Shown here: one piece after another, positions 6,733 through 60,487 of the stretch
How positions within the stretch are numbered: position 1 is the stretch's first letter
Layout of the letters: every line of letters begins with the position of its first letter
Assembly (NCBI RefSeq): GCF_000384335.2
Contig: NZ_KQ031382.1
Coordinates: 2,367,545 to 2,431,544, forward strand
Length of the DNA stretch: 64,000 nt
Direction: 5' to 3'
DNA from: Hyphomicrobium sp. 99
Lineage (GTDB): Bacteria; Pseudomonadota; Alphaproteobacteria; Rhizobiales; Hyphomicrobiaceae
Notes under the pieces: model-generated
Told to the model about the DNA's origin: nothing
What the model saw: only the letters and a program-made list of their open reading frames with translations
Databases searched by the model: none
Position numbers and translations under genes: made by a program

Positions 6733-7524
6733 ATGCAAAAATCGAAGCGAGCCCCCGGCGTGCGCCGGGCCGAAATCCGGCGCATCCTCCGCACGCAGCA
6801 ATCTGCGACGGTGGAAGAACTGTGCGCGCTTTTGAATGCCTCGCCTGCAACAATTCGGCGAGATCTCGCAGCTCTTGCTGACAATGATGAACTTGAGCGG
6901 AGCCACGGCGGCGCGGTCGCACCGCTTCTCCGCGAAGCCGAACAAAATTTCGCGCAGCGCGAATCCATCGACGCCGGAGAGAAGCAAGCAATCGCGGAAG
7001 CGATCCTTCCCCTGCTCACGCCCGGAAGCACGTTGTTCATGAACGACGGCTCGACCGTGATGGCGATTGCGAAACTGATCGTCGAGAGCGGGATAGAGTT
7101 GTTCGTCGCGACACCGGCCGTCAACGTCGCCGCCAAGCTCTCTGAGAGCCGCTCGATCACTGCGTGTTTGCTCGGCGGATTTGTGCGTCAGACCTCGTTG
7201 GCGACGTCCGGTCCTTTTGCTGAAGCCATGGCTGCCCAGATCAACGCCGATCTCGCAATCATTTCGCCCGATGGCCTGCATCCCGAACAGGGACTGACAT
7301 TCCTGAATGCGGAGGATGCCGCTCTTGCCCGAAGAATGGCGTCTCAATCGAAACGCGTTGCGGCAGTAGCGACCAAGGCAAAGCTCATGTCCGTCAAACG
7401 AGTCATCGGCGTCGCGATGTATGCGGTCGATCAACTGGTGTGCGGCTGCTCGCGCGCCGAAATCCCCTCGGCACTCATGGAGAGCGGCGTGAAAATTCTA
7501 TCGCGATCGAAGGAAAAAGCATGA
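6733..7524 (+). CDS. DeoR/GlpR-family transcriptional regulator
   Basis: 263 residues. An N-terminal winged helix-turn-helix (about 12-58; A-T-I-R-R-D-L is the recognition helix motif) precedes a DeoRC sugar-phosphate sensor domain. The family usually represses catabolic operons and is released by a phosphorylated intermediate, which fits the kinase encoded three genes downstream. The chosen ATG 6733 has no ribosome binding site but lies 7 bases after a TATAAT box, so the message may be leaderless. The stop overlaps the start of the next permease gene (ATGA). Confidence 0.9.
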   Translation: MQKSKRAPGVRRAEIRRILRTQQSATVEELCALLNASPATIRRDLAALADNDELERSHGGAVAPLLREAEQNFAQRESIDAGEKQAIAEAILPLLTPGSTLFMNDGSTVMAIAKLIVESGIELFVATPAVNVAAKLSESRSITACLLGGFVRQTSLATSGPFAEAMAAQINADLAIISPDGLHPEQGLTFLNAEDAALARRMASQSKRVAAVATKAKLMSVKRVIGVAMYAVDQLVCGCSRAEIPSALMESGVKILSRSKEKA

Positions 7525-8393
7525 AGGGGCCTAATGCGCGGGCGGCTCGTCAGGGCCTTTGGTTTTTTCTCCCCGCTGGTGTGTTTCTAACCGTCATCCT
7601 GATTTATCCGATGTTGTACTCGCTCTATGCGAGTCTAACGAACATGCGGCTGACGAGCCCAATCACGCGTTTTGTCGGGCTCGATACATATGCAGGCGTG
7701 CTGACGAACAGCGCGTTCGGCAGTTCGCTCGCTTTGACTTTGATTTTTCTTGTCGCTGCAATCTCGCTCGAATTCCTGATCGGTTTCGCTCTCGCGCTGT
7801 CCTTTAAATCGATGCGGCATACGCATCCGATCCTGCGCGCTCTGCTCATGCTGCCGTTGATGGCGACGCCGGTCAGCGTCGGCCTGGTCTGGAAGCTGAT
7901 GCTCAACAGTGACTTCGGAATCGTCCCCTATATCGGCCAACAGTTGGGCTTCGGTACGCTTCTCTGGCTCGCGGATCCCATTCTTTCGATGGTGTCAGTG
8001 ATCATCATGGACGTCTGGCAATGGACGCCTTTCATGTTTCTGATTCTGCTCGCTGGGCTCGAGGGTTTGCCGGAGGAGGTCTTCGAAGCGGCTGAAGTTG
8101 ACGGATCACGGTCATTCGACTTGCTGATCCACATCACGCTGCCACTAATGTCCCGGATCATTGCGGTGGCGCTGGCATTCCGCGTGATGTTTGCGATCGC
8201 GACATTTGACACTGTCTTCGTTCTGACGAAGGGCGGCCCCGCGCGCGCGACGGATCTCATCACGCTCCTCATTCAGCGCGAGGGACTGGTGAACCTCAAC
8301 GTGGCTCTGGCATCGGCGATGTCGTTCCTTGTGTTGCTGATGGTCACGGCGTTCAGCGCATTCACATTCAAGCGAGTGCTGGCCAATGGATAA
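7521..8393 (+). CDS. ABC transporter permease, MalF/UgpA-type
   Basis: 290 residues with six predicted membrane helices and the EAA loop E-A-A-E-V-D-G-S-R in the C-terminal half, typical of CUT1 permeases. ATG 7521 overlaps the DeoR stop by four bases (ATGA), so translation is coupled. It pairs with the next gene to form the heterodimeric channel and is presumably driven by the ATPase on the other strand. Confidence 0.93.
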   Translation: MKGPNARAARQGLWFFLPAGVFLTVILIYPMLYSLYASLTNMRLTSPITRFVGLDTYAGVLTNSAFGSSLALTLIFLVAAISLEFLIGFALALSFKSMRHTHPILRALLMLPLMATPVSVGLVWKLMLNSDFGIVPYIGQQLGFGTLLWLADPILSMVSVIIMDVWQWTPFMFLILLAGLEGLPEEVFEAAEVDGSRSFDLLIHITLPLMSRIIAVALAFRVMFAIATFDTVFVLTKGGPARATDLITLLIQREGLVNLNVALASAMSFLVLLMVTAFSAFTFKRVLANG

Positions 8394-9219
8394 AAGCCGT
8401 CGCAAGAGCTGGCTCGAAGCCGCGCATCTCGTCGCGAACATCATGATCGTGGCGCTGTTCCTGTTCCCCCTGGCGTGGATGATCCTCGGCGCCTTCAAGG
8501 CGCAAGCGGATCTCCTGTCTCCAAACCCCGTATGGTTTTTCACGCCGACGCTCGAGCATTGGCATTTCATTTTCGACAATTGGAATGTCGAACGGCATCT
8601 GGTGAACAGCGTCATCGTCAGCGTGGCAACGACGGCCCTCACGCTTCTGTTGGCTTTGCCTGCAGCCTATGGGCTTGCGCGATTTCCGATTAAAGGCAAA
8701 GACGCGATCACATTTGAGATCCTGAGTCTCAAGATGATCCCCCCGATCGCAGCGGTCGTCCCGCTGTTTATCTTGATGCGACAGGTCGGGCTCTACAATA
8801 CGCTGACGGTGCTCATCCTCCTCAACACAGCGTTCCAACTGCCTTTCGCCATTCTCGTTCTCAAATCTTTCGTTGAGGAAATCCCGCGCGAGATTGACGA
8901 GGCCGCGACGGTCGATGGTTGCCGCCCGTTTGGCGTGCTTTGGCGCGCCATCCTTCCGTTGTCTGTCCCGGGCCTGATTTGCTGCGCTGTGTTCGTATTC
9001 ATCTTCAGTTGGAACGAATTCATGATCGCCAATACACTCGTCGGTGGCGACTTGCGGCCGCTGCCGCCAATCGTCGGCTTGGCACTGACACATCGCGGAA
9101 TCCTCTGGGGACCAGCACTTGCGCTCGGCGTCGTTGTCCTGATTCCGGTCTTCGCTTTGACGTTCTCGCTATCGCGCTACATGGCGCGCGGGCTGACATT
9201 CGGAGCGGTCAAAGGATGA
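8386..9219 (+). CDS. ABC transporter permease, MalG/UgpE-type
   Basis: 277 residues, six membrane helices and an EAA loop (E-I-D-E-A-A-T-V-D-G) at about 165-175. The start at 8386 overlaps the stop of the previous permease by eight bases. It is the second channel subunit of the CUT1 importer. Its own stop overlaps the next gene by four bases. Confidence 0.93.
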   Translation: MDKSRRKSWLEAAHLVANIMIVALFLFPLAWMILGAFKAQADLLSPNPVWFFTPTLEHWHFIFDNWNVERHLVNSVIVSVATTALTLLLALPAAYGLARFPIKGKDAITFEILSLKMIPPIAAVVPLFILMRQVGLYNTLTVLILLNTAFQLPFAILVLKSFVEEIPREIDEAATVDGCRPFGVLWRAILPLSVPGLICCAVFVFIFSWNEFMIANTLVGGDLRPLPPIVGLALTHRGILWGPALALGVVVLIPVFALTFSLSRYMARGLTFGAVKG

Positions 9220-10031
9220 CAGAGGAGGAAACCCTCGCTGCGCTGCCGATCTGGCGCAGCACGCCGACCCTGGTGCCTTTGGAGAAAGGCCGAACCAACC
9301 GAAATTTCATCATCCGCCACGGCGATGACCGCTATTTCGGCCGCATGGGAATTGACTTGCCGCATCACGACGTGTCGCGCTCGAACGAGCAGGCATGTGC
9401 GAAAGTCGCGGCCGACTTAGGCGTCTCGCCGGACGTTCATTACGCCGACAACGGCATCCTGATCACCACCTTCGTCGATGGCGCCACCTTGTGCGCTGCC
9501 GATATGCATGACGGCGAAACGATTGACGCGATCGCCGCAGTTCTTCGCCGCCTTCATTCACGGCCCGCGCCTCGTGCGATCACGGCACGCTGCGGCGTTG
9601 CGATCTGCCGTAGCTATCTCGAAACGACGCCAGACGACGAGCTGCCCATACCGCGTGAGACGATCATCCGACGGTTGGGTGAGCCAAATGTCGATGGCGA
9701 TAGCCTCGTTCACACCGACATCATCCCAGAAAACTTGATGCGGACCACAAACGGTTTGATGCTGATCGACTGGGAATATTCCGGGCGCGGTGTCCCCGAA
9801 ATCGATCTCGCATCGGTCATCGCCAATGGCGATCTTACGCCGTCCGCAACACAGAGGCTGCTTGCCGCGTACGGGCCTCATCGCGCCGACGTGCTCGAAC
9901 AGCAGCGCGTAGCTCTCGTCGTACGCGAGGCCCTGTGGTGCCTTGCCCAACTCCGTCACGGCGGACCGCAGGGCGACATGGTCGCGTACACGAAGCACTG
10001 CCTCGACCGCATGCTGAGACTATTTTCATGA
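9216..10031 (+). CDS. Choline/ethanolamine-kinase-like (APH/LicA fold) phosphotransferase
   Basis: 271 residues. Brenner motif H166-T-D168-I-I-P-E-N173 and the metal-binding D185 in I-D-W-E-Y-S-G are intact; the W-E-Y-S-G and later P-E-I-D-L-A pattern is typical of the choline/ethanolamine kinase branch rather than of antibiotic kinases. ATG 9216 overlaps the permease stop (ATGA). Sitting between an importer and GlpA/B-like dehydrogenases, it probably phosphorylates the imported alcohol, a role glycerol kinase plays in glp operons. No FGGY kinase is present. The substrate is unknown. Confidence 0.82.
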   Translation: MTEEETLAALPIWRSTPTLVPLEKGRTNRNFIIRHGDDRYFGRMGIDLPHHDVSRSNEQACAKVAADLGVSPDVHYADNGILITTFVDGATLCAADMHDGETIDAIAAVLRRLHSRPAPRAITARCGVAICRSYLETTPDDELPIPRETIIRRLGEPNVDGDSLVHTDIIPENLMRTTNGLMLIDWEYSGRGVPEIDLASVIANGDLTPSATQRLLAAYGPHRADVLEQQRVALVVREALWCLAQLRHGGPQGDMVAYTKHCLDRMLRLFS

Positions 10032-11416
10032 GTGTACAGTTCGATATCGCGGTCATTGGCGCGGGAGTCGTCGGTTCGGCGATCGCCCGCGATCTATCCC
10101 GCTACGATTTGAAAGTCGTTCTCCTCGAAGCCAACACCGATCTTGGCGATGAGTCGAGCAAGGGCAACTCCGCGCTGATGACCGAGGGGCATGACACGCC
10201 TGCCGGCTCGCTCGAGCGCGATCTCGTCGTGCGCGGATACCAACGCTATATGACGGAAGCGCCGCAACTTGGCCTGCCGATGCGCAAGACCGGCGCCATC
10301 ATGCTGGCCTGGACAGACGAGCAGCGCGCGACCGTCGAGAAGCTTGTCGAGGAGGCCCACGGCGAAGGGTTTCACAACGTCCACTTGCTCGAAGGCGATG
10401 AAGTGGCGAGGCGTTGGCCACAGTTCCGCCCTGGCGTTCTTTGCGCGCAATGGATGCCGGATGAAATCATCGCCGATCCATTCTCGACGCCTTACGCCTA
10501 TGTTCTTGAGGCTGTCACCAACGGCGTAACGTTCTTGCGGCCGTGGCGCGTCTCGCGCGCCGAACGAAACGCTCATGGCTGGCGGTTGCGTAATGACCGA
10601 GGCGACGTTCTCGAAGCAGGTCTTGTCATCAATGCAGGCGGCATCCGCGCAGATATAGTCGAGGGCCTCGTTGGCCATTCCGATTTCGTGATGCGGCCGC
10701 GGCGCGGTCAGTACATTCTGCTCGACAAGCCGGCGCGCGCGATCCACGACATCATCGCGTATCCGACACCGACTCCGGCATCGCGCGGCATTCTGATATC
10801 GCCGACGATATTCGGCAACGTACTCGTCGGTCCGACAGCGGAAGAGGTCGAGGATCGCGACGACCGCGGAGTCACCGAAGTGGGGCTCCGAGCGTTACGG
10901 CAAGCAATCGACGACATGGTTCCCGCCCTGCGCGACATGCCGGTGAATACGATCTATGCCGGCATGCGGCCTGCGACGAACCACAGCGATTATCAAATCA
11001 TCCCGCGGTTCGGTGAGCGCTGGCTGACGGTTGCAGGAATTCGCTCGACAGGATTTTCAGGCGCCTTGGGTATCGCCGAATATGTGATGTCTCTCGTGTT
11101 CCCGAAAGTTTTCGATAAGCAGCCAACCAAGACCGTGCGCGGCGTACGCGTTCCGGATCTGTCGGAGACCAGCATTCGGCCGTGGGCCGATCCGGAGAAG
11201 ATCGCAACCGATCCGGCGTATGCGGATATGCTCTGCCATTGCGAACGGATCAGCGTCGGAGAAGTACGGGACGCACTCAACTCACCGGTCCCACCGGCAT
11301 CGATCAAAGCTCTAAAGCGACGTACGCGCGCAATGTTTGGCCGTTGCCAGGGATTCTATTGCGGCGCGCGCGTACAGGTCATGTTCGACGAAGCCAAGGT
11401 CAAACGCGATGCGTGA
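10028..11416 (+). CDS. GlpA-like FAD-dependent oxidoreductase with C-terminal BFD-type [2Fe-2S] domain
   Basis: 462 residues. A Rossmann motif G-A-G-V-V-G (about 11-16) opens a DAO-fold FAD domain similar to glycerol-3-phosphate and D-amino-acid dehydrogenases. The last 60 residues hold a BFD-like Fe-S domain with Cys pattern C-H-C-E-R-I and C-Q-G-F-Y-C-G. This DAO+BFD layout is that of anaerobic GlpA, though shorter than GlpA (about 540). ATG 10028 overlaps the kinase stop by four bases. Together with the next flavoprotein it probably forms a two-subunit dehydrogenase; a GlpC-type membrane anchor is absent. Confidence 0.85.
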   Translation: MSVQFDIAVIGAGVVGSAIARDLSRYDLKVVLLEANTDLGDESSKGNSALMTEGHDTPAGSLERDLVVRGYQRYMTEAPQLGLPMRKTGAIMLAWTDEQRATVEKLVEEAHGEGFHNVHLLEGDEVARRWPQFRPGVLCAQWMPDEIIADPFSTPYAYVLEAVTNGVTFLRPWRVSRAERNAHGWRLRNDRGDVLEAGLVINAGGIRADIVEGLVGHSDFVMRPRRGQYILLDKPARAIHDIIAYPTPTPASRGILISPTIFGNVLVGPTAEEVEDRDDRGVTEVGLRALRQAIDDMVPALRDMPVNTIYAGMRPATNHSDYQIIPRFGERWLTVAGIRSTGFSGALGIAEYVMSLVFPKVFDKQPTKTVRGVRVPDLSETSIRPWADPEKIATDPAYADMLCHCERISVGEVRDALNSPVPPASIKALKRRTRAMFGRCQGFYCGARVQVMFDEAKVKRDA

Positions 11417-12374
11417 TCCAGCGGTACTCATCGTCGGAGCTGGACCCGCAGGTCTGGCCGCGGCCGCCGAACTGATAAAACGCGGCGTGAACGACATCCT
11501 CGTCATCGATCGCGACGACGCGCCCGGCGGCCTGCCGCGCTTCTGCGCGCATCCCGGTTTCGGCATCGGCTATTCGGCAATTCCCCGATTTGGGCCTGAA
11601 TTTTCCTCGCGTCTCGTCCGCGCCGTCGAAGACAAAAACGTGCGCATCCTCTGCAGCACCACCATGACCGCCCTCGATAATGGTCCCGCTGTTTCGATCA
11701 CCGGGCCCGAATGCGGATATCGGATACTCAGGCCCCGCGCCGTCATTCTCGCCACCGGCATCCGCGAGGCAAACCGAGGCAACAGAATGGTGCCCGGAGA
11801 CCGACCGGAAGCTGGCGTTTTGACCACAGGGTTGCTTCAGCAGATGGTCGCGCGGAAGGTCCCGTTCCCCGCTGCAATGAAATCGATCGTCGTTGTAGGC
11901 ACCGAGCACGTATCGTTCTCGGCAATTTGGACCGCACGTCATGCCGGACTGAAAGTGCGCATGATGGTGGATGACCGCCCGCGGATCGGCTCTTTCCGTC
12001 CTGTTGGATGGCTCGCCCGAGCTATGGGCATCGATGTGCGCCTTGGCACGCGCGTCGCTGCGATCAAGGCGCGAAACAACCGCGTTTCAGGCGTCGTCAT
12101 CGATGGACCGCGCGGAACCGAAACGATCGCCTGTGATGGCGTCGTATTCACCGCCGGTTGGATCCCTGAAGTCGCTGCGGTCGCGACCGGCCCTGTCAAA
12201 GTCGATAGCCTCACCGGCGGTATCGCAGTCAACGGCAACGGACTGACGAACGTCGCCGGCGTCTTCGCCGCGGGCAATGTTCTTTATCCGCTCAAGGCAA
12301 GTGGCTCATGCGCGATACAGGGCCGGCACATTGGAGCAGCTGTCGCGAAGTATCTAAAATCTCAGACGGCATAG
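11409..12374 (+). CDS. GlpB/HcnB-like NAD(P)/FAD-dependent oxidoreductase
   Basis: 321 residues. FAD motif G-A-G-P-A-G-L-A-A-A-A near the N-terminus, a middle nucleotide-binding segment and the C-terminal G-V-F-A-A-G-N-V motif identify a pyridine nucleotide-disulfide-type flavoprotein without the redox C-x-x-C. Short forms like this act as the B subunit of GlpABC, opine and hydroxyproline dehydrogenases. The start overlaps the GlpA-like gene by eight bases. It is the last gene of the cassette and is followed by a strong hairpin. Confidence 0.82.
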   Translation: MRDPAVLIVGAGPAGLAAAAELIKRGVNDILVIDRDDAPGGLPRFCAHPGFGIGYSAIPRFGPEFSSRLVRAVEDKNVRILCSTTMTALDNGPAVSITGPECGYRILRPRAVILATGIREANRGNRMVPGDRPEAGVLTTGLLQQMVARKVPFPAAMKSIVVVGTEHVSFSAIWTARHAGLKVRMMVDDRPRIGSFRPVGWLARAMGIDVRLGTRVAAIKARNNRVSGVVIDGPRGTETIACDGVVFTAGWIPEVAAVATGPVKVDSLTGGIAVNGNGLTNVAGVFAAGNVLYPLKASGSCAIQGRHIGAAVAKYLKSQTA

Positions 12375-12454: not shown

Positions 12455-13078
12455 TCAGGACATCACGCCGAAAAGCAGTGACAAGCCCACCAATCCGCCG
12501 ATCACACCGGACACTCTCCTGAGCGTCAGCGCCATAGATGGTTTCAGCTGATCAACGTAGAGAGCCGAAACCATTCCCGTCACGTGCAGAAGCGAAGTCG
12601 CGGCAACGAACCCGACAGCATAGGGAAGAAAGGCGAAGCCCAGTCCAGCTCCCTCGTTCCCGTGGGCATGACCATGGAAAACCGCGAACAGTCCAACCAC
12701 AGCCATCGCCGCAACAGTCGGCAACCGAACGCCGATGGCCACCGCCGCACTCAAAGCAACGACGGACAAGCCGATCCCTTGTTCGACCATCGGCAGGGGC
12801 CATCCCTCGTAGCCGAGCAAACCACCAAACATCATCGCGGCGACGAAAGCCGTAGGCACAAGCCACCGTGCCGACCCGCCCATGTTGAACGCAAAGAATC
12901 CCACAGCCACCATCGCGATGATGTGGTCAATGCCGCTCATCGGATGCAGAAAACCCTGACTGAACGTATGAACGGCACCAATCCCGACGTGAGCCGAAGC
13001 GGGTAGCGCCGCCGCCAACATCAGGAGCGAGCCTGCGCCGAGGGCTTTTAGAACGTGCTGTGCGCGTGAAAATCTCAT
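12455..13078 (-). CDS. hupE: HupE/UreJ-family nickel permease
   Basis: 207 residues from ATG 13078, which has GGAG eight bases upstream. A signal-like first helix (ending A-S-A-H) is followed by about six membrane helices. Both family signatures are present: H-P-M-S-G-I-D-H in the first part and F-H-G-H-A-H-G-N-E in the middle, which bind Ni2+ in transit. HupE/UreJ proteins normally sit with hydrogenase or urease genes; here the gene is last in the guanidine-hydrolase operon, 12 bases after it, so it most likely supplies nickel to that enzyme. Confidence 0.9.
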   Translation of the reverse strand: MRFSRAQHVLKALGAGSLLMLAAALPASAHVGIGAVHTFSQGFLHPMSGIDHIIAMVAVGFFAFNMGGSARWLVPTAFVAAMMFGGLLGYEGWPLPMVEQGIGLSVVALSAAVAIGVRLPTVAAMAVVGLFAVFHGHAHGNEGAGLGFAFLPYAVGFVAATSLLHVTGMVSALYVDQLKPSMALTLRRVSGVIGGLVGLSLLFGVMS

Positions 13079-13089
13079 CGAATGCTCTC

Positions 13090-14319
13090 CTACTTCATGA
13101 CTCTGCTGCGATGGCCGAGCTTCCCGTTCGCCACCAGAGTTCCAAGCACATCGAGCACGACGCGGCATGCAAGCTGAGCCGTGTTGTCGTTGACGTCGTA
13201 CGGCGGCGACACCTCGACGACTTCCATGCCGCATAGGCCTTCCGCTGCAATCGTATGGATCATCTCGAATGCTTCGCGCGGCAGGAGACCGCCGGGCTCG
13301 GGCGAACCGGTTCCGGGAGCAAACCCCGGATCGATCGAGTCGATATCGAATGACAGGTAGACCGCCTTGCAGCCTTCCCATGCCATTTCGAGCGCGATTT
13401 CCGCAGCCTTCTTCGGACCAAAATGCTGCACGTCGTGCATCGTCAGCACGCTCGTTCCACGGCGCTTAGCGACAGCCGTTCCCGGGCGATTGCCGTACCA
13501 GCCGCCAATGCCGATCTGCACGAGATTTTTCGGATGGCAGTTCGGCAAGCCCACATCGTGCATGTGGCTATGGTCACGATGCGACGCGTGCGTCCCTTCG
13601 TTCGTCGTCCAGAACCAAGGCGTCGTGTGCATGCGCTCATCCATATCCTTCTCTTGAATATCGATGTGCCGGTCGATGTGAATGATGCCGACGTTGCCGT
13701 CGATATGCGGAGCAATGCCCCGCACGTTGGGGAAGCCCAAGCTATGATCGCCGCCGCAGATGATTGGGAAAACGCCCGACGTGTAGATGTGCGAAACGGC
13801 CTTTGTCACCTGGTCGAACGTCTTCTCGATATTGCCCGGAATGACAAAGATGTCCCCCGCATCGCAAAGATCGAGTTCTTCATAGATGTCGACGCCGCCA
13901 TCGAACCAGTAGCCGTCGTAAAGTGCCGATATCCGGCGAACAGCTTGCGGCCCAAAGCGTGTGCCGGGCCTGTAGGTCGTCGCCGAGTCGAATGGCGCGC
14001 CAACAAAAGCCGCCTCGTAGTTGCCGATCTTCCGAATGTCTTCGCAGTACGGCGCCTTCATGAAGGTGTTGATGCCCGCGAACGCCGGCTGGTGGCCACG
14101 GCTGAACAACGAGATATTGCGGTCGATGACGGAGTCAGCAGCTTCAAGCCCATATTGCAGTGATCGAGCGACTTCCTCGTCCTGCTTGGTCTGGGAGATG
14201 CGAGACAATGTCTCCATGCTCTTCGCACCATGCGTGTCTTCGCGCCGTACGCCGTGCGAATGGCCATGACGATGGGCGTGGGGAAAGTCGTGATCGTGAT
14301 CTTTAGGACTGCGCACCAT
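13090..14319 (-). CDS. gdmH: GdmH-type Ni-dependent guanidine hydrolase (arginase/ureohydrolase fold)
   Basis: 409 residues, longer than agmatinase (about 310) and like cyanobacterial GdmH (about 390). Ureohydrolase metal ligands are in place: H192 (G-G-D-H-S), D216-R-H218-I-D220 and F-D325-I-D327. The variant H-I-D-R-H-I-D (Arg where arginases have Ala), the following D-E-R-M-H-T-x-P-W-F and the E-P-G-G-L-L-P-R-E-A block match my recollection of Synechocystis GdmH rather than SpeB. Unusually there is a His-rich N-terminus (seven His in residues 8-22) and a second His-rich loop (His 244, 247, 250, 252, 254). GAGGTGA precedes ATG 14319. The enzyme should hydrolyse guanidine to urea and ammonia. 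Neighbouring importer and Ni permease genes support this; assignment is by motif, not by search. Confidence 0.85.
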   Translation of the reverse strand: MVRSPKDHDHDFPHAHRHGHSHGVRREDTHGAKSMETLSRISQTKQDEEVARSLQYGLEAADSVIDRNISLFSRGHQPAFAGINTFMKAPYCEDIRKIGNYEAAFVGAPFDSATTYRPGTRFGPQAVRRISALYDGYWFDGGVDIYEELDLCDAGDIFVIPGNIEKTFDQVTKAVSHIYTSGVFPIICGGDHSLGFPNVRGIAPHIDGNVGIIHIDRHIDIQEKDMDERMHTTPWFWTTNEGTHASHRDHSHMHDVGLPNCHPKNLVQIGIGGWYGNRPGTAVAKRRGTSVLTMHDVQHFGPKKAAEIALEMAWEGCKAVYLSFDIDSIDPGFAPGTGSPEPGGLLPREAFEMIHTIAAEGLCGMEVVEVSPPYDVNDNTAQLACRVVLDVLGTLVANGKLGHRSRVMK

Positions 14320-14382
14320 TTCGAAGTCACCTCTAATGTCAGATATCGAGTGAATTGCGGGAGTTCATGAGACCGGTGACCG

Positions 14383-15531
14383 CTATTGCGGGCCGAGTCT
14401 TCCGATCCATTTGTTCGAAGAGTATTTGGCCGCTAAGCCGTCAGCGGCGAGCGCGGAAAGAAGCGACGTATCGAACGCCTCGTTCGATTTGACTTTCTTT
14501 TGAGAAACCCCGGCCACGAAATACGTTTCGCTGAACAGATCCCAGGTCGACTCCGCGTAGCCTGCGACGCAATCGGGCCCGTTGAACAGTGAACCCCAAC
14601 CCTTGACGTCGGCCGGAGCGCGAGGAGCTTCTGCGGGCAGGCTTTCGCAGAGAGGCTTTCCACCCTCCAGGCCAAGCGCGCCCAAGTTCTGATTGATGTT
14701 GAGCATGATCGCGCCGTACTGGTTGAGCTTCACGTCGGCCACCGGCCACGAAAGACCGGCAGCGACGATCGCATCACCTTCCTCCGGATTCTCCTTCCAC
14801 CAATTGACCGCTTCGAACCACGCACGCAGCAGTTCCTTGGCAACCGCCGGTTTCTCGGCAAGCCACGCTTGGTTGCAGGCGATGGCATCGGAAATGAGCC
14901 CGCGCTCCCAAGTGCGGTCTGTAAGGCTCGATTTGAAGATCTTCGCCCCGTCGCGCTTCAACGACTGGGAGGCAAAGGGATCGTAATTGACGTCGATATC
15001 AATGCCGCCGCTCGCGAACGCAGCCGCGCTCTCCTGCGGAAGCATGACCGCGTGCTGCAGCTCCTTCACATCGATGCCCGCCCGCTTGAGCGTGAGCAGC
15101 ATCCACATATGGTTGAGGAACCCGTAGTCGGCGCCGAACTTCTTACCCTTGAAGTCCTCGACGGAATTGATGTCCTTCGTCACCACCATCTTGTCGAGGC
15201 CGTAGGACATATCCGAGAACGCAACGACCTTTACAGGAAGGTCTCCGGCACGCGCCAACACCATACTGTCCATGGTGTTGTTCATGCATTGAACCTGCCC
15301 CGACGTAATCGCGGCATTCTTTTCGGTGATGCCCTCGATGATCTTGACGTCGAGATTGATATTCTTGGCGAGGCCCTTCGCCTTGACGATGTACCATGGC
15401 GCATAGGGCGAAAACGATATGATAGCGACACTGACATTTTCGGCGGCGCTAACTCGATGTGCGGTGACCGGCGCCGAGACCGCCACCAAGCTGAGCGCAA
15501 GCAACGTGTTCGTGAACGACTTCTTTTTCAT
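14383..15531 (-). CDS. NitT/TauT-type periplasmic substrate-binding protein (putative guanidine-import component)
   Basis: 382 residues with a signal peptide (K-K-K at the N-terminus, cleavage near V-S-A, residue 29). The mature part belongs to the NMT1/TauA-SsuA group of binding proteins for nitrate, sulfonates, riboflavin and thiamine precursors. It is encoded 63 bases upstream of gdmH and downstream of its ATPase and permease, all on one strand. NitT/TauT-type importers are recurrent partners of guanidine genes, so guanidine or a guanidino compound is the likely ligand, an inference from context. Confidence 0.85.
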   Translation of the reverse strand: MKKKSFTNTLLALSLVAVSAPVTAHRVSAAENVSVAIISFSPYAPWYIVKAKGLAKNINLDVKIIEGITEKNAAITSGQVQCMNNTMDSMVLARAGDLPVKVVAFSDMSYGLDKMVVTKDINSVEDFKGKKFGADYGFLNHMWMLLTLKRAGIDVKELQHAVMLPQESAAAFASGGIDIDVNYDPFASQSLKRDGAKIFKSSLTDRTWERGLISDAIACNQAWLAEKPAVAKELLRAWFEAVNWWKENPEEGDAIVAAGLSWPVADVKLNQYGAIMLNINQNLGALGLEGGKPLCESLPAEAPRAPADVKGWGSLFNGPDCVAGYAESTWDLFSETYFVAGVSQKKVKSNEAFDTSLLSALAADGLAAKYSSNKWIGRLGPQ

Positions 15532-15590
15532 TTTTTGCCGTCTCCTGAACGATCTTCGATCCTTCGGTTCGTGTCGTCGAAGCGAATTGG

Positions 15591-16397
15591 CTATTTGATT
15601 TCCTCGCGCATCATCGCAAACAGCTGACGCTCGAGCTCCGCGTATCCGGGCAGATCCAGCAGCTCCTCTTTCTGCTTGATGCGCCGCCCGCCTTTGAACG
15701 TGAGTGGGATATCGGCTTTGATGCGGCCCGGCTGGCGACTGAAGAAGATGATCCGATCGGCCAGATAGATCGCTTCCTCGATATCGTGTGTGATTGCGAC
15801 GACCGTCTTCTTCTCACGCTCGATCAACTCGATCATGAGTTCCTGCATTTCCCAACGAACCTGAGCGTCCAACGCGCCGAACGGTTCATCCATCAGGATG
15901 ATCGCCGGATTTTGCGCCAGTGTTCGTGCGAGAGCGACACGCTGCTTCATGCCTCCGGACAAGCTACGCGGATAGGCGTCGGCAAAATTCTCGAGGTGCA
16001 CGAGCTTGAGAAAATTCATCGTGCGTTCACGCCGCTCTTCCGCCGGAACCTTGAGAATTTTCATCCCGTATTCGACGTTCTGCATGGCGGTCAGCCACGG
16101 AAACGATGTGTACGCCTGAAAAATCATCCCGCGATCAGGCCCCGGCCCCTGCACGTTCTTGCCGAACACTTCCAGCCGTCCGCGTGTGGGATATTCAAGA
16201 CCTGCAATGATGCGCAGCATGGTCGTCTTTCCACAGCCCGACGGACCAACGAAGGCTGTGATTTGATTTTCCTGCAGCTCGAACGATACGTCGTCGAGCG
16301 CCTTGAACGACCCGCCCAGATACTCCTTGCTGATGCGGGTTGCCTTGAGCGGGGGAACGTTTGTCACCGGCTTGAAATCCTTTGCGGCGATATTCAT
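15591..16397 (-). CDS. NitT/TauT-type ABC transporter ATPase
   Basis: 268 residues. Walker A G-P-S-G-C-G-K-T-T (about 51-59), Q-loop, signature L-S-G-G-M-K-Q-R and Walker B I-I-L-M-D-E-P-F-G-A-L-D are intact and match the SsuB/TauB/NrtD group. The gene starts one base after the permease stop and ends about 60 bases before the binding-protein gene. It powers the same importer. Confidence 0.93.
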   Translation of the reverse strand: MNIAAKDFKPVTNVPPLKATRISKEYLGGSFKALDDVSFELQENQITAFVGPSGCGKTTMLRIIAGLEYPTRGRLEVFGKNVQGPGPDRGMIFQAYTSFPWLTAMQNVEYGMKILKVPAEERRERTMNFLKLVHLENFADAYPRSLSGGMKQRVALARTLAQNPAIILMDEPFGALDAQVRWEMQELMIELIEREKKTVVAITHDIEEAIYLADRIIFFSRQPGRIKADIPLTFKGGRRIKQKEELLDLPGYAELERQLFAMMREEIK

Positions 16398-16398
16398 C

Positions 16399-17295
16399 TT
16401 ACGACCTCCGCTCGACGTTCCACGGGAACAGCGCGCGGCAAATGCCCCGGAAAATGAGGTCTGTCAGCAGACCCAACGCACCGATCGTGACAATGCCTGC
16501 CATGATCACGTCGACGTTGAGAAAACGTCCCGCACGCATCATCACGGCCCCGATCCCGTCCTGGGCACCAACGATTTCCGCAATGACAAGATAGGTCCAG
16601 CTCACCGCGATCATGTTGCGCATGGAGTCGAAGATCGCTGGAAGAGCCGCAGGGACGACGATTCCGCTCAGAATGACGCGGCGCGATGCGCCCATCGTCA
16701 ATCCAGCTTCCACAAACTCCTTCTGGATGGCCGTGGTGTTGTCCAGAACCAGTGAGATGAGGAAGAAGATGACGCCGATGAAGAGCAGCGCGATCTTTGC
16801 CTGGTCAGTGGGTCCAAACCAAACGAGCAGCAGCGGAATGAACGACGCCGCCGGCAGATATCGCCAGGCTGTCAATGTCGGATTGAAGAGCGCGCGAATG
16901 TTTCCGAAGCTTCCCATCAGAATGCCAATCGGCACAGCGATCGCGGAAGCCGCCAGGAAGCTGACGAAAATTCGCCAACAACTCACCGAGACGTCGTGGA
17001 GGAAGTTACGCTCGGCGAACAAGACGTAAAGCGCGGAGCCCACCTCACCGATCGAGGGAAAAAACTTGCGGGCTGATGCCGGCGTCAGATAGTGGCCGAG
17101 CTCCCACAAACCAAGGAACGCCATCGCTCCAACAAACGCCAGCACCGAAGCTCGCTGGGCACTCGGCTGCCTTCTGAACTCAAGAAATCTTTCTTTCGGC
17201 GGAATATAAATTGGCGCGGGTTCCATGGTCTCGCTTGGCAAATTTCCAAGCGAAACGAGAGAACCATCGCGCGATTTTGTGATCGCACCTTCCAA
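16399..17295 (-). CDS. NitT/TauT-type ABC transporter permease
   Basis: 298 residues from a TTG at 17295, chosen because GGGAGGT lies eight bases upstream; ATG 17226 further in has no such site and would remove the first 23 residues. About six membrane helices and the EAA-like loop (E-A-G-L-T-M-G-A-S) of SsuC/TauC permeases are present. First gene of the importer-gdmH-hupE operon, preceded by a LysR gene in the same direction. Confidence 0.9.
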   Translation of the reverse strand: MEGAITKSRDGSLVSLGNLPSETMEPAPIYIPPKERFLEFRRQPSAQRASVLAFVGAMAFLGLWELGHYLTPASARKFFPSIGEVGSALYVLFAERNFLHDVSVSCWRIFVSFLAASAIAVPIGILMGSFGNIRALFNPTLTAWRYLPAASFIPLLLVWFGPTDQAKIALLFIGVIFFLISLVLDNTTAIQKEFVEAGLTMGASRRVILSGIVVPAALPAIFDSMRNMIAVSWTYLVIAEIVGAQDGIGAVMMRAGRFLNVDVIMAGIVTIGALGLLTDLIFRGICRALFPWNVERRS

Positions 17296-17414
17296 GGCTC
17301 TACCTCCCGACAAAGACTGCAAAATCTAGCGTTTTGCTCGTTCTAAGTTGTCGTCATGAGGGTAGCGGCGCGGCCGTCTAATAAAACGCCCAAAATGGAA
17401 ATGGGAAGCATTGA

Positions 17415-17537: not shown

Positions 17538-18506
17538 CTATTCCGTTGTGGCGTCAGCGCAGACGTGTCCGCGCACCCGCTTCGCTTCGGAGATAGTCGC
17601 TTTCAACTCTTCGATGAAGAAGATGTGTGCGAGGTGCAAAGGCCGGTCTGGATTGGAAATGATGAAAATTTCCATGGCTGGTGCATGGCGCTTTCCGAGC
17701 AACGGCCATAATCGGCCGGAAGAAACGTCCGGCGCTGCGTAGCCCTCGGGAAGAAAGCACACGCCGACACCGAGGATTGCCAGTCGGCGCGCTTCCTCCA
17801 AATGTTGGGAAATTCCAGAGACCTTCTGCCCAATTCCGTATTTCAAGCGGAAGTCTGAAAGTTGATCGGGCTCGTCGGCGCCTGTCAGGATGAACGCCTC
17901 TTGCGCCAGCGCCCTAGGATCGAGAAGTTTTTGACCATAGAGACGATGACCTCGCCCACAATAGGGACGATGCGTCTCGCGAAACAACGGATGATAGATG
18001 AGATCGGCGCGTTTGCTTCGCGAAGGTGCAACACCGATGTCAATCTCCTGCCGAAGCAGAGAATTGATGACATCCGACCAGCTCGCAACATCGACGATCA
18101 ATTCCGCATTCGGACACTTTCTGTGAAATGACAGGATTACATCGTCGAGAATTTCGCTGACGACATTGCTGATCATTTTGATGCGCACAGGCCCGCTGAC
18201 GATGTTGAGCGTGTTCGCCATTGCGTCCGGAATTCCACGGACCAGCGCCTTCAGCTTCATGCACGTGTCGGCAAGAGCCCGACCCTCGTCGGTCAGCTCA
18301 AAACCACTCGGGCCTCGTTCACACAGACGCACATTGAGGTGACCTTCGAGCCGCTGCAGCGCGAGACTTATTGAGGGTTGCTTGCGACGCAAAAGCTCCG
18401 CCGCCGCTGTGACGCCGCCCGTTTCGGCGATGATGCAGAAGACCTTGAATAGGTTCCAATCGAGATTCCTGATGAAATCATCGTGGCGAATGCTGTTCGA
18501 AGGCAT
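17538..18506 (-). CDS. LysR-family transcriptional regulator of the guanidine operon
   Basis: 322 residues. N-terminal LysR helix-turn-helix (about 15-75, with R-K-Q-P-S-I-S-L-A-L-Q-R-L-E) and a C-terminal LysR substrate-binding domain. It lies directly upstream of, and in the same direction as, the importer-gdmH-hupE operon, so it probably senses guanidine or a nitrogen signal. It shares long identical or near-identical blocks with the LysR protein at 22.7-23.6 kb (R-N-L-D-W-N-L, L-C-E-R-G-P, F-I-L-T-G-A-D-E), marking the two as recent paralogues. Confidence 0.9.
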   Translation of the reverse strand: MPSNSIRHDDFIRNLDWNLFKVFCIIAETGGVTAAAELLRRKQPSISLALQRLEGHLNVRLCERGPSGFELTDEGRALADTCMKLKALVRGIPDAMANTLNIVSGPVRIKMISNVVSEILDDVILSFHRKCPNAELIVDVASWSDVINSLLRQEIDIGVAPSRSKRADLIYHPLFRETHRPYCGRGHRLYGQKLLDPRALAQEAFILTGADEPDQLSDFRLKYGIGQKVSGISQHLEEARRLAILGVGVCFLPEGYAAPDVSSGRLWPLLGKRHAPAMEIFIISNPDRPLHLAHIFFIEELKATISEAKRVRGHVCADATTE

Positions 18507-18762: not shown

Positions 18763-19680
18763 TTAACTTAAATGCTCGGACGCAGCAACGAAGTCGGAGC
18801 TGATGAGCGTTTGCCGATTGCCAATAGAATTCAGCGAGCGCTCGGCAGAGTTGATCGTGTTGACGAGCAGCATCGTCACCGTCATCGGACCGACGCCGCC
18901 AGGAACGGGCGTGATCATGGACGCGCGCCGGCTCACACCTTCAAAGTCGCAGTCCCCAACCAGTTGACCGTTCGCTAAGCGATTGATGCCGACGTCGATC
19001 ACGACGGCACCGGACTTGACCATCGGCGCCGTGATCAGATTGGGATACCCGGCCGCCACGATCAGAATGTCCGCAAGGATCGTGAACTGAGCCAGATCTC
19101 GAGTCTTTGCGTGGCAAACCGAGACCGTTGCCTCCCGCTGCATCAACATCAGCGCCATCGGCTTACCGACAATGTTGCTGGCACCGACAACCACCGCGTT
19201 GCGACCGGCGACATCCACGCCCGCATGATCGAGAAGCAACATCACCCCGTACGGCGTACAGGGTGGGAACACCGTATCTCCGATGACCAATCCGCCGACG
19301 TTGTAGAGATGAAAACCGTCGACATCCTTCCCCTGATCGATGGCGCCGAGCACAGTCTTGACGTCAAAATGTTTCGGAAGCGGCAGCTGCACCAGGATTC
19401 CGTGGATCGACGGGTTGGCACTAAGTTCAGCAATTTTCTCGATGACGACTGACTGATCGACATCGGCAGGGAACAGGAACTTTCGAGAATCTATGCCGAC
19501 GTCGGCGCAGGCTTGAATTTTCTTTCGCACGTACACGGCCGAAGCCGGGTCTTCGCCGACCATGATCACGGCAAGGCCGGGCGACACACCAAATTGTTTT
19601 TTGAGAGCGTCAACCCGTTGTCGGCACTCACGACGAACACCGGCTGCAACGGCCTTACCGTCGATAATTTTGGCTGTCAT
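18763..19680 (-). CDS. folD: Bifunctional methylene-H4F dehydrogenase / methenyl-H4F cyclohydrolase
   Basis: 305 residues. Hallmarks of FolD are present: the Y-V-R-K-K catalytic Tyr/Lys segment, Q-L-P-L-P, K-D-V-D-G-F and the C-terminal P-G-G-V-G-P-M-T-V motif, plus the nucleotide-binding G-A-S-N-I-V-G-K-P. The enzyme interconverts methylene-, methenyl- and formyl-tetrahydrofolate with NADP. It follows ftfL by about 110 bases on the same strand. In methylotrophs this pair can replace MtdA/Fch in moving formate carbon into the methylene-H4F pool. A roughly 20-residue C-terminal tail beyond the family core is present. Confidence 0.96.
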   Translation of the reverse strand: MTAKIIDGKAVAAGVRRECRQRVDALKKQFGVSPGLAVIMVGEDPASAVYVRKKIQACADVGIDSRKFLFPADVDQSVVIEKIAELSANPSIHGILVQLPLPKHFDVKTVLGAIDQGKDVDGFHLYNVGGLVIGDTVFPPCTPYGVMLLLDHAGVDVAGRNAVVVGASNIVGKPMALMLMQREATVSVCHAKTRDLAQFTILADILIVAAGYPNLITAPMVKSGAVVIDVGINRLANGQLVGDCDFEGVSRRASMITPVPGGVGPMTVTMLLVNTINSAERSLNSIGNRQTLISSDFVAASEHLS

Positions 19681-19790
19681 TGCGTTACTCTCTGAAAGGC
19701 TGCAGCGCTCCGATGGGAACGCGGCAGCTCATCGACAGAATGATCGAGACGTTCCTGTGTGACCGGCGCAATGCCGGTGCGCTTTACGTT

Positions 19791-21467
19791 CTAGAACAGC
19801 CCCTGAATTTGGCCCTTGTCGTCGAGACGGATGGAATCGGCCGACGGCACCTTCGGCAAGCCCGGCATCGTCATGATCTCGCCGGTGACGACGACGATGA
19901 ACTCGGCGCCCGCGGACAGCCGAAGCTCACGAATGGGCACGATGTGGCCCGTCGGGGCCCCGCGCTTCGTCGGGTCGGTCGAGAACGAATACTGCGTCTT
20001 TGCCATGCAGACCGGGAAATGCCCGAAGCCCGCGGCCTCGAAATCCTTGAACTGCGTTTCAACGCTCGCATCGCACGAGATGTCGGCGGCGCGATAGATT
20101 TCCGTCGCGATCGTCTTCACCTTGTCCCGCAGTTTCATGTCGTCCGGATAGAGTGGCTTGAAGTTCGCCTTGCCTTCATCGATGACGTTGACGACGTGCT
20201 TGGCGAGCGCCTCCGTGCCCTTGCCGCCGTCGGCCCAGTGCGTGCACAGGAACGCCTTCGTGCCCATGCTTTCCGCCGCCTTCTGAACCTCGGCGATCTC
20301 GGCGTCGGTGTCGGTGATGAACTTGTTGACGGCGACGACGGCCGGCACGCCGAACTTGTTCACGTTTTCGATGTGGCGCTTCAGGTTTTCGCAGCCCTTA
20401 GCGACGGCCGCGGCGTTCTCATGCTTGAGGTCATCCTTGGCGACGCCGCCGTGCATCTTGAGCGCGCGCACGGTGGCGACGATGACGACGGCGGACGGCG
20501 AAATGCCGGCCTTGCGGCACTTGATGTCGAAGAACTTCTCCGCACCCAAATCGGCGCCGAAGCCGGCTTCGGTGACGACGTAATCGGCAAGCTTCATCGC
20601 CGTCTTCGTCGCCAGCACCGAGTTGCAGCCGTGCGCGATGTTCGCGAACGGACCGCCGTGGATGAAGACCGGGTTGTTCTCGAGCGTCTGCACCAGGTTC
20701 GGCTGCAGGGCGTCCTTCAGCAGCACCGTCATCGCGCCGTCGGCCTTGAGATCGCGGGCGCGGATCGGCTTCTTATCGCGCGTGTAGGCGACGATGATGT
20801 TGCCGAGACGGTTTTCAAGATCTTTCAGATCCTTCGACAGGCAGAGGATCGCCATGACTTCCGAGGCGACGGTGATGTCGAAGCCGTCCTCGCGCGGAAA
20901 GCCGTTCGAGACGCCGCCCAAGGAATTGACGATCGAGCGCAGCGCCCGATCGTTCATGTCGAGCACGCGCTTCCAACCGATGCGGCGCTGATCAATGCCG
21001 AGCGCGTTGCCCCAGTAGATGTGGTTGTCGATCAAGGCCGAGAGCAGATTGTGGGCGCTCGTGATGGCGTGGAAGTCGCCGGTGAAATGGAGATTGATGT
21101 CTTCCATCGGCACGACCTGGGCGTAGCCGCCGCCGGCCGCGCCGCCCTTCACGCCGAAGCAGGGCCCTAGCGAGGGTTCGCGCAGCGCCGCGATCGCCTT
21201 CTTGCCGATATAGTTAAGGCCATCGCTCAAGCCGACCGTCGTCGTCGTCTTGCCTTCGCCGGCCGGCGTCGGGCTAATGGCGGTGACGAGGATGACCTTG
21301 CCGTCACTGAAACTTTCAATGTCTTTCAGATAGTCGAACGAGATTTTTGCCTTGGTCCATCCGTAAGGAATGAGCGCGTGCGATGGCACACCGACCTTGG
21401 CTGCGACCTCCGCAATAGGTTTGAGCTTTGCTTCGCGGGCAATTTCGATGTCGGACTTGACGGACAT
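19791..21467 (-). CDS. ftfL: Formate-tetrahydrofolate ligase
   Basis: 558 residues from ATG 21467, which has GGGGAG at good spacing; a longer frame to 21497 has no support. Length matches the family (about 557). The P-loop [10 protein letters not shown] is at about 57-66 and conserved blocks such as [10 protein letters not shown] and F-V-C-M-A-K-T-Q-like (here [10 protein letters not shown]) are present. It makes 10-formyl-H4F from formate, ATP and H4F, the entry to assimilation in serine-cycle methylotrophs. Also called fhs. FolD, encoded next, takes the product onward. Confidence 0.97.
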
Positions 21468-21723
21468 TCTGATGCTCCCCTCAGGACGCGAGAACACGAC
21501 TCAATCCGCGCAGGCGACGGCCCGCTGTCCGTATTGGCGGCGATATTCGCGTCTCCACTTTCGGGCGAGTCTACTATCACGAAACTTTCGTTCCCTCCAA
21601 GCAACTTTCGAGGGATGGCTTCATTTTTACAGTGTCAGCGTCCTTTTCCGGTGCGCGCAGACAGCAGGACCAGCCCTGCCAAGAGGGCTTGGTCCTTGTT
21701 AAAATACGTGAATGTAAGGCGCG

Positions 21724-59461: not shown

Positions 59462-60487
59462 TCACGATGCTCTTTGCCCATGTCCTATCCGGGAAGAATA
59501 GGAAAGCGATCGCGCGCCATTCATTCGCGCAACACGGCAAGCCTGCTCATAAACCACAGTCGCCGCCGCAAGCGCCGTGATGCCCGCCTGATCATAAGCA
59601 GGCGCGACTTCAACGACGTCGCATCCGACGATCCGAAGTCCATCGAGGCCGCGCAGCATCGCCAGCAGCTCTCGCGGCGTCAGCCCGCCCATCACCGGCG
59701 TACCCGTACCCGGCGCAAATGCCGGATCGAGACAATCGATATCGACTGTCAGGTAGCACGGAGCATCCCCCGCAAGCGCTTTCACCATGGCGATGATCTG
59801 AGCGGGGCCTTTCTCGGCAACCGCCATGCTGTCGAAAATGTTCATCCCCATCGGATCATCGACCCACGTCCGGATACCGATCTGCGACGATAGCCTCGGA
59901 TCGATCAGACCATCGCGAATAGCTTGCGCGAACATCGTGCCGTGATTGATTTCGACTTCACCGCCGGGGCCGGTGCGCGGCGTCCACGTGTCAGGATGCG
60001 CATCGAAATGGATGAGCGCCAGCGGCCCGTACTTTCGCGCGTGTGCTTTGAGCAGCGGATAGCTGACGAAATGATCACCACCGAGCGCGCATAGAAACGC
60101 ACCGGCAGAAACGACATCGAACGCGGCCTCCTCGATCGCTGCGGGGATTGTATGCGGAAATCCAAAGTCGAGCAGCGCATCGCCGAGATCCACGATCCGG
60201 ACATGCGAAAGCGGATCGAAACCGCCAGGATAAGACTTGAGCTCAGCGAGTTGAGCGGAAGCGGTCCTCACCGCATCAGGGCCCATCCGCGCCCCAGGCC
60301 GGTTCGACGTCGCAATGTCGAGCGGTACCCCGAGAACTGCGAAATCGCCCGCCCGCGCCCGAGCGACGCGCGGCGTCCGCAAAAAAGTATGCGTACCCGA
60401 ATAGGTTTGTTCGGAAGCGATGGAAGAAGGAGAAAGCGCACTGCACCTATGTTGCGCATGCACGCCCGTTGTGGGGCCGGAAAGCAT
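59462..60487 (-). CDS. speB: Agmatinase-type ureohydrolase
   Basis: 341 residues. Metal ligands in G-G-D-H-F, H-F-D-A-H-P-D and D-I-D-C-L-D-P-A-F-A are complete; H-F-D-A-H-P-D-T-W is the agmatinase form, unlike the H-I-D-R-H-I-D of the guanidine hydrolase at 13-14 kb. GAGGT precedes the ATG. It should act on agmatine or a related guanidino compound, giving urea; SpeB-like proteins vary in substrate, so this is the main uncertainty. Alone, not in an operon. Confidence 0.87.
   Translation of the reverse strand: MLSGPTTGVHAQHRCSALSPSSIASEQTYSGTHTFLRTPRVARARAGDFAVLGVPLDIATSNRPGARMGPDAVRTASAQLAELKSYPGGFDPLSHVRIVDLGDALLDFGFPHTIPAAIEEAAFDVVSAGAFLCALGGDHFVSYPLLKAHARKYGPLALIHFDAHPDTWTPRTGPGGEVEINHGTMFAQAIRDGLIDPRLSSQIGIRTWVDDPMGMNIFDSMAVAEKGPAQIIAMVKALAGDAPCYLTVDIDCLDPAFAPGTGTPVMGGLTPRELLAMLRGLDGLRIVGCDVVEVAPAYDQAGITALAAATVVYEQACRVARMNGARSLSYSSRIGHGQRAS

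Follow-up and report, generated by a model that had tools for sequence, protein, structure and literature searches.

What is the substrate of the ureohydrolase encoded in a five-gene operon of Hyphomicrobium sp. 99? The operon lies on the minus strand of the window, the whole 64,000-nucleotide stretch analysed here (assembly GCF_000384335.2, contig NZ_KQ031382.1, positions 2,367,545 to 2,431,544). From its 5′ end it encodes the permease, ATPase and binding protein of an ATP-binding cassette (ABC) importer, a 409-residue ureohydrolase and a HupE-type permease, with a LysR gene just ahead on the same strand. A preliminary description had read this row as a single guanidine-hydrolase operon of the GdmH family, with its own importer and nickel permease, in a methylotroph. 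An open reading frame (ORF) and Pfam check of the window confirmed that all five genes are present and intact on one strand, with tight spacing. The operon is real and its family was named correctly, but the substrate in that first reading was probably wrong. Comparative sequence data give about an even chance that the operon serves a small N-alkylated guanidine, most likely N-methylguanidine, in which case its enzyme would be a nickel-dependent methylguanidinase producing methylamine and urea.

A ureohydrolase outside the group of characterised guanidinases

The ureohydrolase gene (13090..14319, minus strand; PF00491, 250.7 bits) encodes a protein whose best matches among solved structures are 9fek (443.7 bits) and 7esr/7oi1 (439.9 bits), with a guanidinobutyrase next at 160.1 bits; the matches to 9fek and 7esr start only at residues 34 and 39. 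We take 9fek to be the guanidinase of N. inopinata and 7esr/7oi1 to be GdmH of Synechocystis, their PDB titles reading “agmatinase 2”. These identities agree, with an offset of 2, with positions in PMC11410670. The six metal ligands of MefH, two His and four Asp (PMC11399263), have equivalents in H192, D216, H218, D220, D325 and D327, none of which varies among the 43 rows of alignment A2. The protein thus has both the sequence relation and the two-metal ligand set of GdmH-type guanidinases. The H-x-D-R-H-x-D motif, previously described as a GdmH-type site, is indeed present at H214 to D220, but it is not diagnostic of a guanidinase because its fixed residues are invariant in 43 of 43 A2 rows, in both of the groups distinguished below. 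Scores against curated NCBIfam models fell below the cut-offs for TIGR01230 (153 vs 174.3), NF002564 (195.9 vs 302), TIGR01227 (128.8 vs 229.15) and TIGR01229 (106.2 vs 227.6), so that by these models the protein is not an agmatinase, formimidoylglutamase or arginase. It is encoded by a single gene, unlike the DmgH/MefH heteromers with their tandem alpha and beta genes, and scores 130 bits against MefH beta and about 101 to 107 bits against alpha.

Guanidinase requires Thr105, His222 and Trp313 in N. inopinata numbering, and the tryptophan (Trp313/Trp305) allows or blocks access to the active site (PMC11410670). Alignment showed that the window enzyme keeps the threonine (Thr115) and histidine (His231), and that its residue at the site of Trp305/Trp313 is Ser339 (codon 13303..13305, minus strand; residue verified), so that this protein lacks the tryptophan which the published work expects of a guanidinase. 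The same position divides its relatives. A genome_contigs scan covering 84,980 species, each represented by one genome, confirmed at least 429 relatives, the best 80 of which were kept; together with the 11 best of 30 from the host’s family (L004-L014; L and G numbers denote loci and genomes), these make up 91 loci, duplicates included (the window is present as L004, and L005/L039 and L009/L040 seem to be pairs from one genome each). Of the 91, 43 have Ser or Thr at this position and 48 have Trp. In a tree of 96 rows, rooted at the midpoint and with long outgroup branches, the 48 Trp rows, among them both characterised enzymes, form one group that needs one change, at a support of 90/99, which is below the tool’s star threshold. 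The window enzyme falls in a clade of 29 proteobacterial Ser/Thr rows (100/100), and 11 other Ser rows, mostly actinobacterial, are basal without resolution. Five of eight outgroup rows have Thr at the Trp position, the remaining three being off-pattern, and twelve other columns separate the Trp from the Ser/Thr group at 85% or more. In the alignment and tree suggested in the preliminary description, the enzyme’s nearest solved relatives are two guanidinases, but it lies in a separate clade. Clade membership and the missing tryptophan are computed directly; together they suggest that the window enzyme belongs to a sister group of the characterised guanidinases and is more likely to split a methylated guanidine than guanidine. 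Two of the actinobacterial Ser-type genes (L065 and L069) carry the title of a Bifidobacterium breve metagenome-assembled genome (MAG); they are very similar to genes of other Actinomycetota MAGs, and the species label is probably wrong.

Riboswitches, regulators and importers

Further evidence came from the control regions of these loci. With a guanidine-I model trained on six Rfam hits, the riboswitch was detected in 41 of the 48 Trp loci, four of which had supplied training sequences and one of which (L110) scored weakly at 34 bits. There was none in the 37 Ser/Thr loci (L010-L012, L039-L071, L074), in the window, or in the wider and second-copy regions L127-L131. Six of the 37 (L048, L059, L060, L065, L070 and L074) have less than 3 kb before the gene, and L010-L012, taken with a flank of 1.5 kb, were searched again as L129-L131. 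Among the seven Trp loci that lack a guanidine-I signal, six (L013, L014, L073, L086, L107 and L112) have at most 2.1 kb of sequence, and L113 is a true exception. A full Rfam scan of the window and 21 Ser/Thr loci yielded one guanidine signal, a guanidine-III riboswitch (46 bits; cut-off 36) in Actinomycetospora, upstream of a small-multidrug-resistance (SMR) gene (PF00893) that converges with the one for the Ser-type enzyme (L063:10121-10518, minus strand). In two Hyphomicrobium genomes, guanidine-II candidates at 32.5 and 32.9 bits (cut-off 32; L127:13074-13123, minus strand, and L128:6142-6191, plus strand) lie about 210 bases ahead of LysR genes that head LysR-APC-enzyme sets holding second Ser-type copies. 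Class II riboswitches do not discriminate guanidine from methylguanidine, and class I is specific for guanidine (PMC12508155). Given these specificities, the distribution of riboswitches suggests that the Ser/Thr system belongs to guanidino-compound biology, but outside guanidine-only riboswitch control.

Neighbouring genes were counted in 34 Ser/Thr and 46 Trp loci among L039-L118. Relatives of the window’s LysR protein (at least 38% identity over half its length) occur in 11/34 Ser/Thr loci and 0/46 Trp loci; the LysR gene (17538..18506, minus strand; PF03466/PF00126) directly adjoins the operon upstream, and its product is likely the operon’s regulator. Binding proteins are divided in the same way. 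The window type, an NMT1/SsuA-type protein (14383..15531, minus strand; PF09084), was found in 10/34 Ser/Thr and 0/46 Trp loci, and the type encoded by the host’s riboswitch-controlled guanidine operon (see below) in 20/46 Trp and 0/34 Ser/Thr loci. The two proteins are 26% identical over 222 aligned positions, and by this comparison the window’s importer is not of the host’s guanidine type. Its other parts are an ATPase (15591..16397, minus strand; PF00005, 112.2 bits) and a permease (16399..17322, minus strand; PF00528, 74.5 bits) whose ORF starts at a TTG, with the first inner ATG at 17226. The importer is replaced by an amino-acid-permease-type transporter in Aminobacter (L044) and beside the second Hyphomicrobium copies, and by a different APC-like gene in Actinomycetospora. 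The window operon resembles that of Synechocystis GdmH in having an adjoining ABC importer, and its enzyme resembles both characterised guanidinases in fold family, metal ligands and the signature Thr and His. The system differs from theirs in its Ser at the gating position, two His-rich segments and a LysR gene, in lacking a guanidine-I riboswitch and hypAB genes in the operon, and in having a binding protein of another type than the compared Trp loci.

Guanidine use by the host

The 4.1 Mb host genome, in which three PF00491 (arginase-family) genes lie apart from one another, encodes guanidine-degrading functions elsewhere. An operon at G000:C3:2150000-2168000 (L132) comprises genes for a binding protein, permease, ATPase, two DUF1989/PF09347 proteins, a carboxylase and an amidase whose C-terminal domain is of the allophanate-hydrolase type, and has guanidine-I (76.6 bits) and guanidine-II (38.9 bits) riboswitches. 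DUF1989/PF09347 is the family of the carboxyguanidine deiminase CgdA/CgdB (PMC11410670). The carboxylase (1226 residues) scores over the TIGR02712 cut-off and follows the residue rule for guanidine carboxylases (PMC11410670): it has Asp in place of the Asn of the K. lactis urea enzyme (position 1330, hand-counted on the alignment), with the second Asp kept as far as visible. Judged by these genes, the host owns a separate guanidine-carboxylase route under guanidine-I and -II control. For the urease alpha subunit, the host genome gave a single match, at 22.4 bits below the cut-off of 23. With no urease above the cut-off, hydrolysis of guanidine would by stoichiometry gain the host only one of the three guanidine nitrogens.

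With the tryptophan missing, a separate clade, no guanidine-I riboswitch, a different binding protein and a carboxylase route already present in a host in which no urease was detected, guanidine is a rather unlikely substrate, contrary to the preliminary description. The enzyme might yet be a guanidine hydrolase if the Ser/Thr clade tolerates the loss of Trp, with ammonium drawn from guanidine under LysR instead of riboswitch control. This alternative would fit the score of 443.7 bits to a characterised guanidinase, the conserved Thr and His, and the class II candidates before the second copies, which sense guanidine too. It would also fit the strong urease matches (169 to 172 bits) in three of the six Ser-type Hyphomicrobium genomes (G043, G047 and G060, the others being G000, G054 and G056). 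The partial matches in G054 and G056 (24.5 and 23.2 bits) are barely above the cut-off and were taken as other amidohydrolases.

Methylated guanidines and methylamine

If the substrate is methylguanidine, hydrolysis would produce methylamine, and genes for methylamine use lie near some Ser/Thr-type genes. In Hongsoonwoonella zoysiae (L053, L144), the Thr-type gene is divergent from a row consisting of a soxB-D-A-G type set, an XRE regulator, mgsA, mgsB, mgsC and gmaS. The sox set scores over the cut-offs of TIGR01373 and TIGR01372 and under those of TIGR01374 and TIGR01375, and the mgs genes are named by resemblance. The gmaS product scores 616 bits to 7cql, the proven GmaS of PMC7948447 and an enzyme of methylamine metabolism. 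In Defluviimonas aestuarii, the contig that carries the Ser-type gene also holds mgsA (63%), mgsB (67%), mgsC (87%) and gmaS (73%) at a distance of about 8 to 12.5 kb; the genes in between include some that look, by eye, like transposase genes. No mgs or gmaS genes were found beyond 9 kb in L058, one of the three loci inspected that far (L053, L058 and L061). The host itself has a methylamine row (L149) of gmaS (73% to that of L144), mgsC (83%), mgsB (73%), mgsA (64%) and a soxA-type gene (54%), which agrees with the earlier description of a methylotroph-type host.

The proposed reaction has a biochemical precedent. Methylguanidinase, listed as EC 3.5.3.16, is not known to act on guanidine, and we know of no sequence for this activity. 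A limited literature search found no paper that assigns a gene to it. PMC11764249 lists the activity as methylguanidine amidinohydrolase and describes conversion of methylguanidine to methylamine and urea in certain Alcaligenes. Characterised relatives do not appear to fill this role: methylguanidine is untouched by MefH and DmgH (PMC11399263), and is not a substrate of the N. inopinata guanidinase (PMC11410670, which prints “methylguanine”). MgdH/MgdL of Vreelandella boliviensis likewise make methylguanidine a nitrogen source, but, unlike the hydrolysis proposed here, they demethylate it oxidatively to guanidine and formaldehyde, after which the carboxylase route follows (PMC12508155).

Several points weigh against a methylguanidine substrate. 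Queries with gmaS, mgs and sox genes matched 1-2 of 34 Ser/Thr loci (mgsC none) and 0-1 of 46 Trp loci (p 0.43 to 1), and the gmaS matches include GlnT-like ones at 39% in L045 and in the Trp locus L114. Because these counts are not significant within the fetched loci, the methylamine-neighbourhood link is one of single loci, and the Hongsoonwoonella, Defluviimonas and L045 cases are single loci each. The sequences compared are related, and all neighbourhood counts are uncorrected for relatedness. The Actinomycetospora guanidine-III riboswitch and SMR gene beside a Ser-type gene are compatible with guanidine too, half of the Ser-type Hyphomicrobium genomes have the strong urease matches given above, and the abundance of free methylguanidine in nature is poorly known (PMC12508155). 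GlnT-like neighbours were found in 7/34 Ser/Thr and 2/46 Trp loci (p 0.033, uncorrected), and they may be something other than methylamine ligases. Among solved structures they match 9qur best (322 bits), an entry with the label glutamate--methylamine ligase. An identification of the GlnT-like protein as a proven methylamine ligase was dropped: the L144 gmaS product reaches a similar score against 9qur (333 bits), and in other contexts GlnT-like genes are found next to creatininase-like ones. A count of GlnT-like genes in 11 of 18 Ser/Thr genomes (E 1e-90), made without a Trp control, was not used as evidence. As a separate observation, inspection by eye showed consecutive ABC importer, GlnT-like ligase and creatininase-like genes in the host (L148:4745-8850, plus strand); genes of the last two kinds also occur close to the Trp-type genes of L113 and L114.

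Were the substrate a differently substituted guanidine (N,N-dimethylguanidine, creatine or a guanidino acid, for instance), hydrolysis would release dimethylamine, sarcosine or an amino acid together with urea. The pocket may differ at more than one place, because twelve further columns differ between the groups, and Thr occupies the Trp position in five of eight outgroup rows. The soxBDAG-type genes by the Thr-type gene could encode sarcosine oxidase, and a creatininase-like gene is found in L070. The L045 locus cuts both ways. Directly before its Ser-type gene are genes for a HypB-like protein (PF02492) and for the alpha (652.6 bits to 8ryi_B) and beta (616.9 bits to 8ryi_C) subunits of DmgH/MefH, which could indicate a related substrate; yet dimethylguanidine would there already be served by the heteromeric DmgH. 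DmgH-alpha relatives above 560 bits occur in 4/21 Ser/Thr genomes and 0/21 Trp genomes (42 of the best 80 loci), with one more Ser genome at 274 bits. Both this distribution and the L045 gene order also count in favour of methylguanidine. Since GmaS belongs to methylamine metabolism (PMC7948447), the mgsABC-gmaS genes beside the soxBDAG-type set of Hongsoonwoonella also argue against this alternative, which we consider unlikely.

The window operon resembles those of DmgH/MefH in combining a predicted nickel ureohydrolase with hupE and, as proposed here, in a methylated-guanidine target; their enzymes are alpha-beta heteromers with hypAB, and the window’s is the product of one gene. A dimethylguanidine-hydrolase-type set in Methyloceanibacter (L161:282-9801) holds HupE (other strand), GlnT-like, HypB-like, HypA (PF01155, 95.8 bits) and DmgH alpha and beta genes. 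Its ABC importer is related to the window’s (permease 52%, ATPase 49%).

Nickel supply and His-rich segments

The last gene of the operon encodes a HupE/UreJ protein (PF04955, 164 bits; cut-off 23) with the predicted function of nickel transport. Its listed ORF (12455-13381) extends too far upstream, into the enzyme gene. The likely start is an ATG at position 13078, which gives a protein of 207 residues (12455..13078, minus strand) encoded 11 bases from the enzyme gene. No HypA or HypB gene is present in the operon and a profile search detected no HypA in the host genome, in line with the earlier note of a missing chaperone partner; among the six Ser-type Hyphomicrobium genomes, HypA was found in one (G047). 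A HupE or NicO-like permease lies at most 900 bases downstream of the enzyme in 13/33 Ser/Thr and 11/43 Trp loci (four too-short loci excluded), the NicO label being weak (19.6 bits vs a Pfam cut-off of 27.7). The presence of a HupE-type permease beside a GdmH-like enzyme and a dedicated importer was thus upheld, but its supposed novelty was not. HupE relatives lie within 14/46 Trp loci, and hupE is found downstream of metformin-hydrolase genes (PMC11399263). With comammox guanidinase regions described as free of nickel chaperones (PMC11410670), these genes indicate that a permease without HypAB is part of a wider pattern. HupE next to enzymes of this kind is therefore not new, although a literature search by title or abstract found no paper joining HupE with a guanidinase.

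The distinctive feature here is a pair of His-rich segments within the enzyme itself, which may load metal. The first, HDHDFPHAHRHGHSHG, spans residues 8-23 (14251..14298, minus strand) and is a possible metal-loading tail. It is probably translated, because a GAGGTGA motif precedes the first ATG and no such motif was seen ahead of the inner Met35. The second, SHRDHSHMHDVG (residues 246-257; 13549..13584, minus strand), is an insert shortly after the HTTPW active-site stretch; position checks confirmed both. Neither 9fek nor 7esr has residues aligned to this insert. After HTTPW, 32/43 Ser/Thr and 0/48 Trp proteins carry an insert that ends in HMHD-GL, and the 11 Ser/Thr proteins lacking one are the basal rows. 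An N-terminal stretch with at least five His in 20 residues occurs in 15/43 Ser/Thr proteins (duplicates counted), and 4/48 Trp proteins just reach five. Separately, genes for a small His-rich protein without a Pfam or NCBIfam match (L082:10243-10758 and relatives) lie beside Trp-type genes in 30/46 loci and in 0/34 Ser/Thr loci. This protein may serve alphaproteobacterial guanidinases as a chaperone or store of nickel; that it is HypB was rejected, since its Pfam and NCBIfam searches were empty and no alignment was obtained between it and L045’s HypB-like protein.

It is improbable that the enzyme uses manganese or another metal and that HupE covers some other nickel need: manganese is commoner in this enzyme family (PMC11399263), the N. 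inopinata guanidinase has one Ni and one Mn (PMC11410670) and the host has more HupE-type genes elsewhere, but the permease recurs just downstream of Ser/Thr-type genes, and searches of the host genome gave no urease, HypA or NiFe hydrogenase above the cut-offs.

Neighbouring genes

Just upstream of the operon (window 18763-21497) are genes for FolD (PF02882, PF00763) and formate-tetrahydrofolate ligase (PF01268), relatives of which occur in 3/34 and 2/34 Ser/Thr loci, respectively, and in 0/46 Trp loci; these genes too count towards a methylguanidine substrate. Converging on the operon from the other side (window 7440-12374, plus strand) are an ABC permease gene identified by PF00528, a second such gene and a kinase-like ORF, both recognised by eye, and genes for a Pyr_redox_2 protein and for an FAD oxidoreductase that carries a 2Fe-2S domain of the BFD type. 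The window also encodes a second arginase-family protein (341 residues; 59462-60487, minus strand), which has Thr at the Trp position; its branch in the tree is very long and groups with agmatinase-like outgroup rows. Close copies of the operon’s enzyme (97-98% identity) occur within the genus, including H. facile (98%).

Proposed pathway and implications

Gene content, the absence of guanidine-I and the pathway genes of the host are direct results; from these and the clade we infer the substrate, the metal, the direction of transport, the regulation and the role of the His-rich segments. For a methylguanidine substrate, the operon, probably controlled by LysR, would take up the methylguanidine cation through its ABC importer, with nickel entering through HupE. 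The Ser-type ureohydrolase, its two-metal site having a mouth opened by loss of the gating Trp, would then split methylguanidine into methylamine and urea. Methylamine would pass through the N-methylglutamate pathway to methylene-tetrahydrofolate, energy and ammonium, and urea would be largely lost or a by-product in a host in which no urease was found. HypA/HypB may have a substitute in the His-rich tail and loop, which would gather nickel for the active site. A broader proposal, which we hold more tentatively, is that the Ser/Thr clade is the missing bacterial methylguanidinase family: a single-subunit nickel enzyme in which a His-rich tail and a loop at the active-site edge would replace HypA/HypB, and which would feed methylotrophy with carbon and nitrogen from methylated guanidines by the N-methylglutamate pathway.

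The position that is Trp in one group and Ser or Thr in the other offers a direct test site for guanidine versus methylguanidine. If the methylguanidine reading is correct, proteins of a recognisable group, which by simple homology would be annotated as guanidinases, do something else, and a reported activity would gain a gene. The enzyme would also be an example of a nickel enzyme filled without dedicated chaperones, and methylated guanidines, including a reported breakdown product of creatinine, would be tied to the cycling of methylamine and urea.

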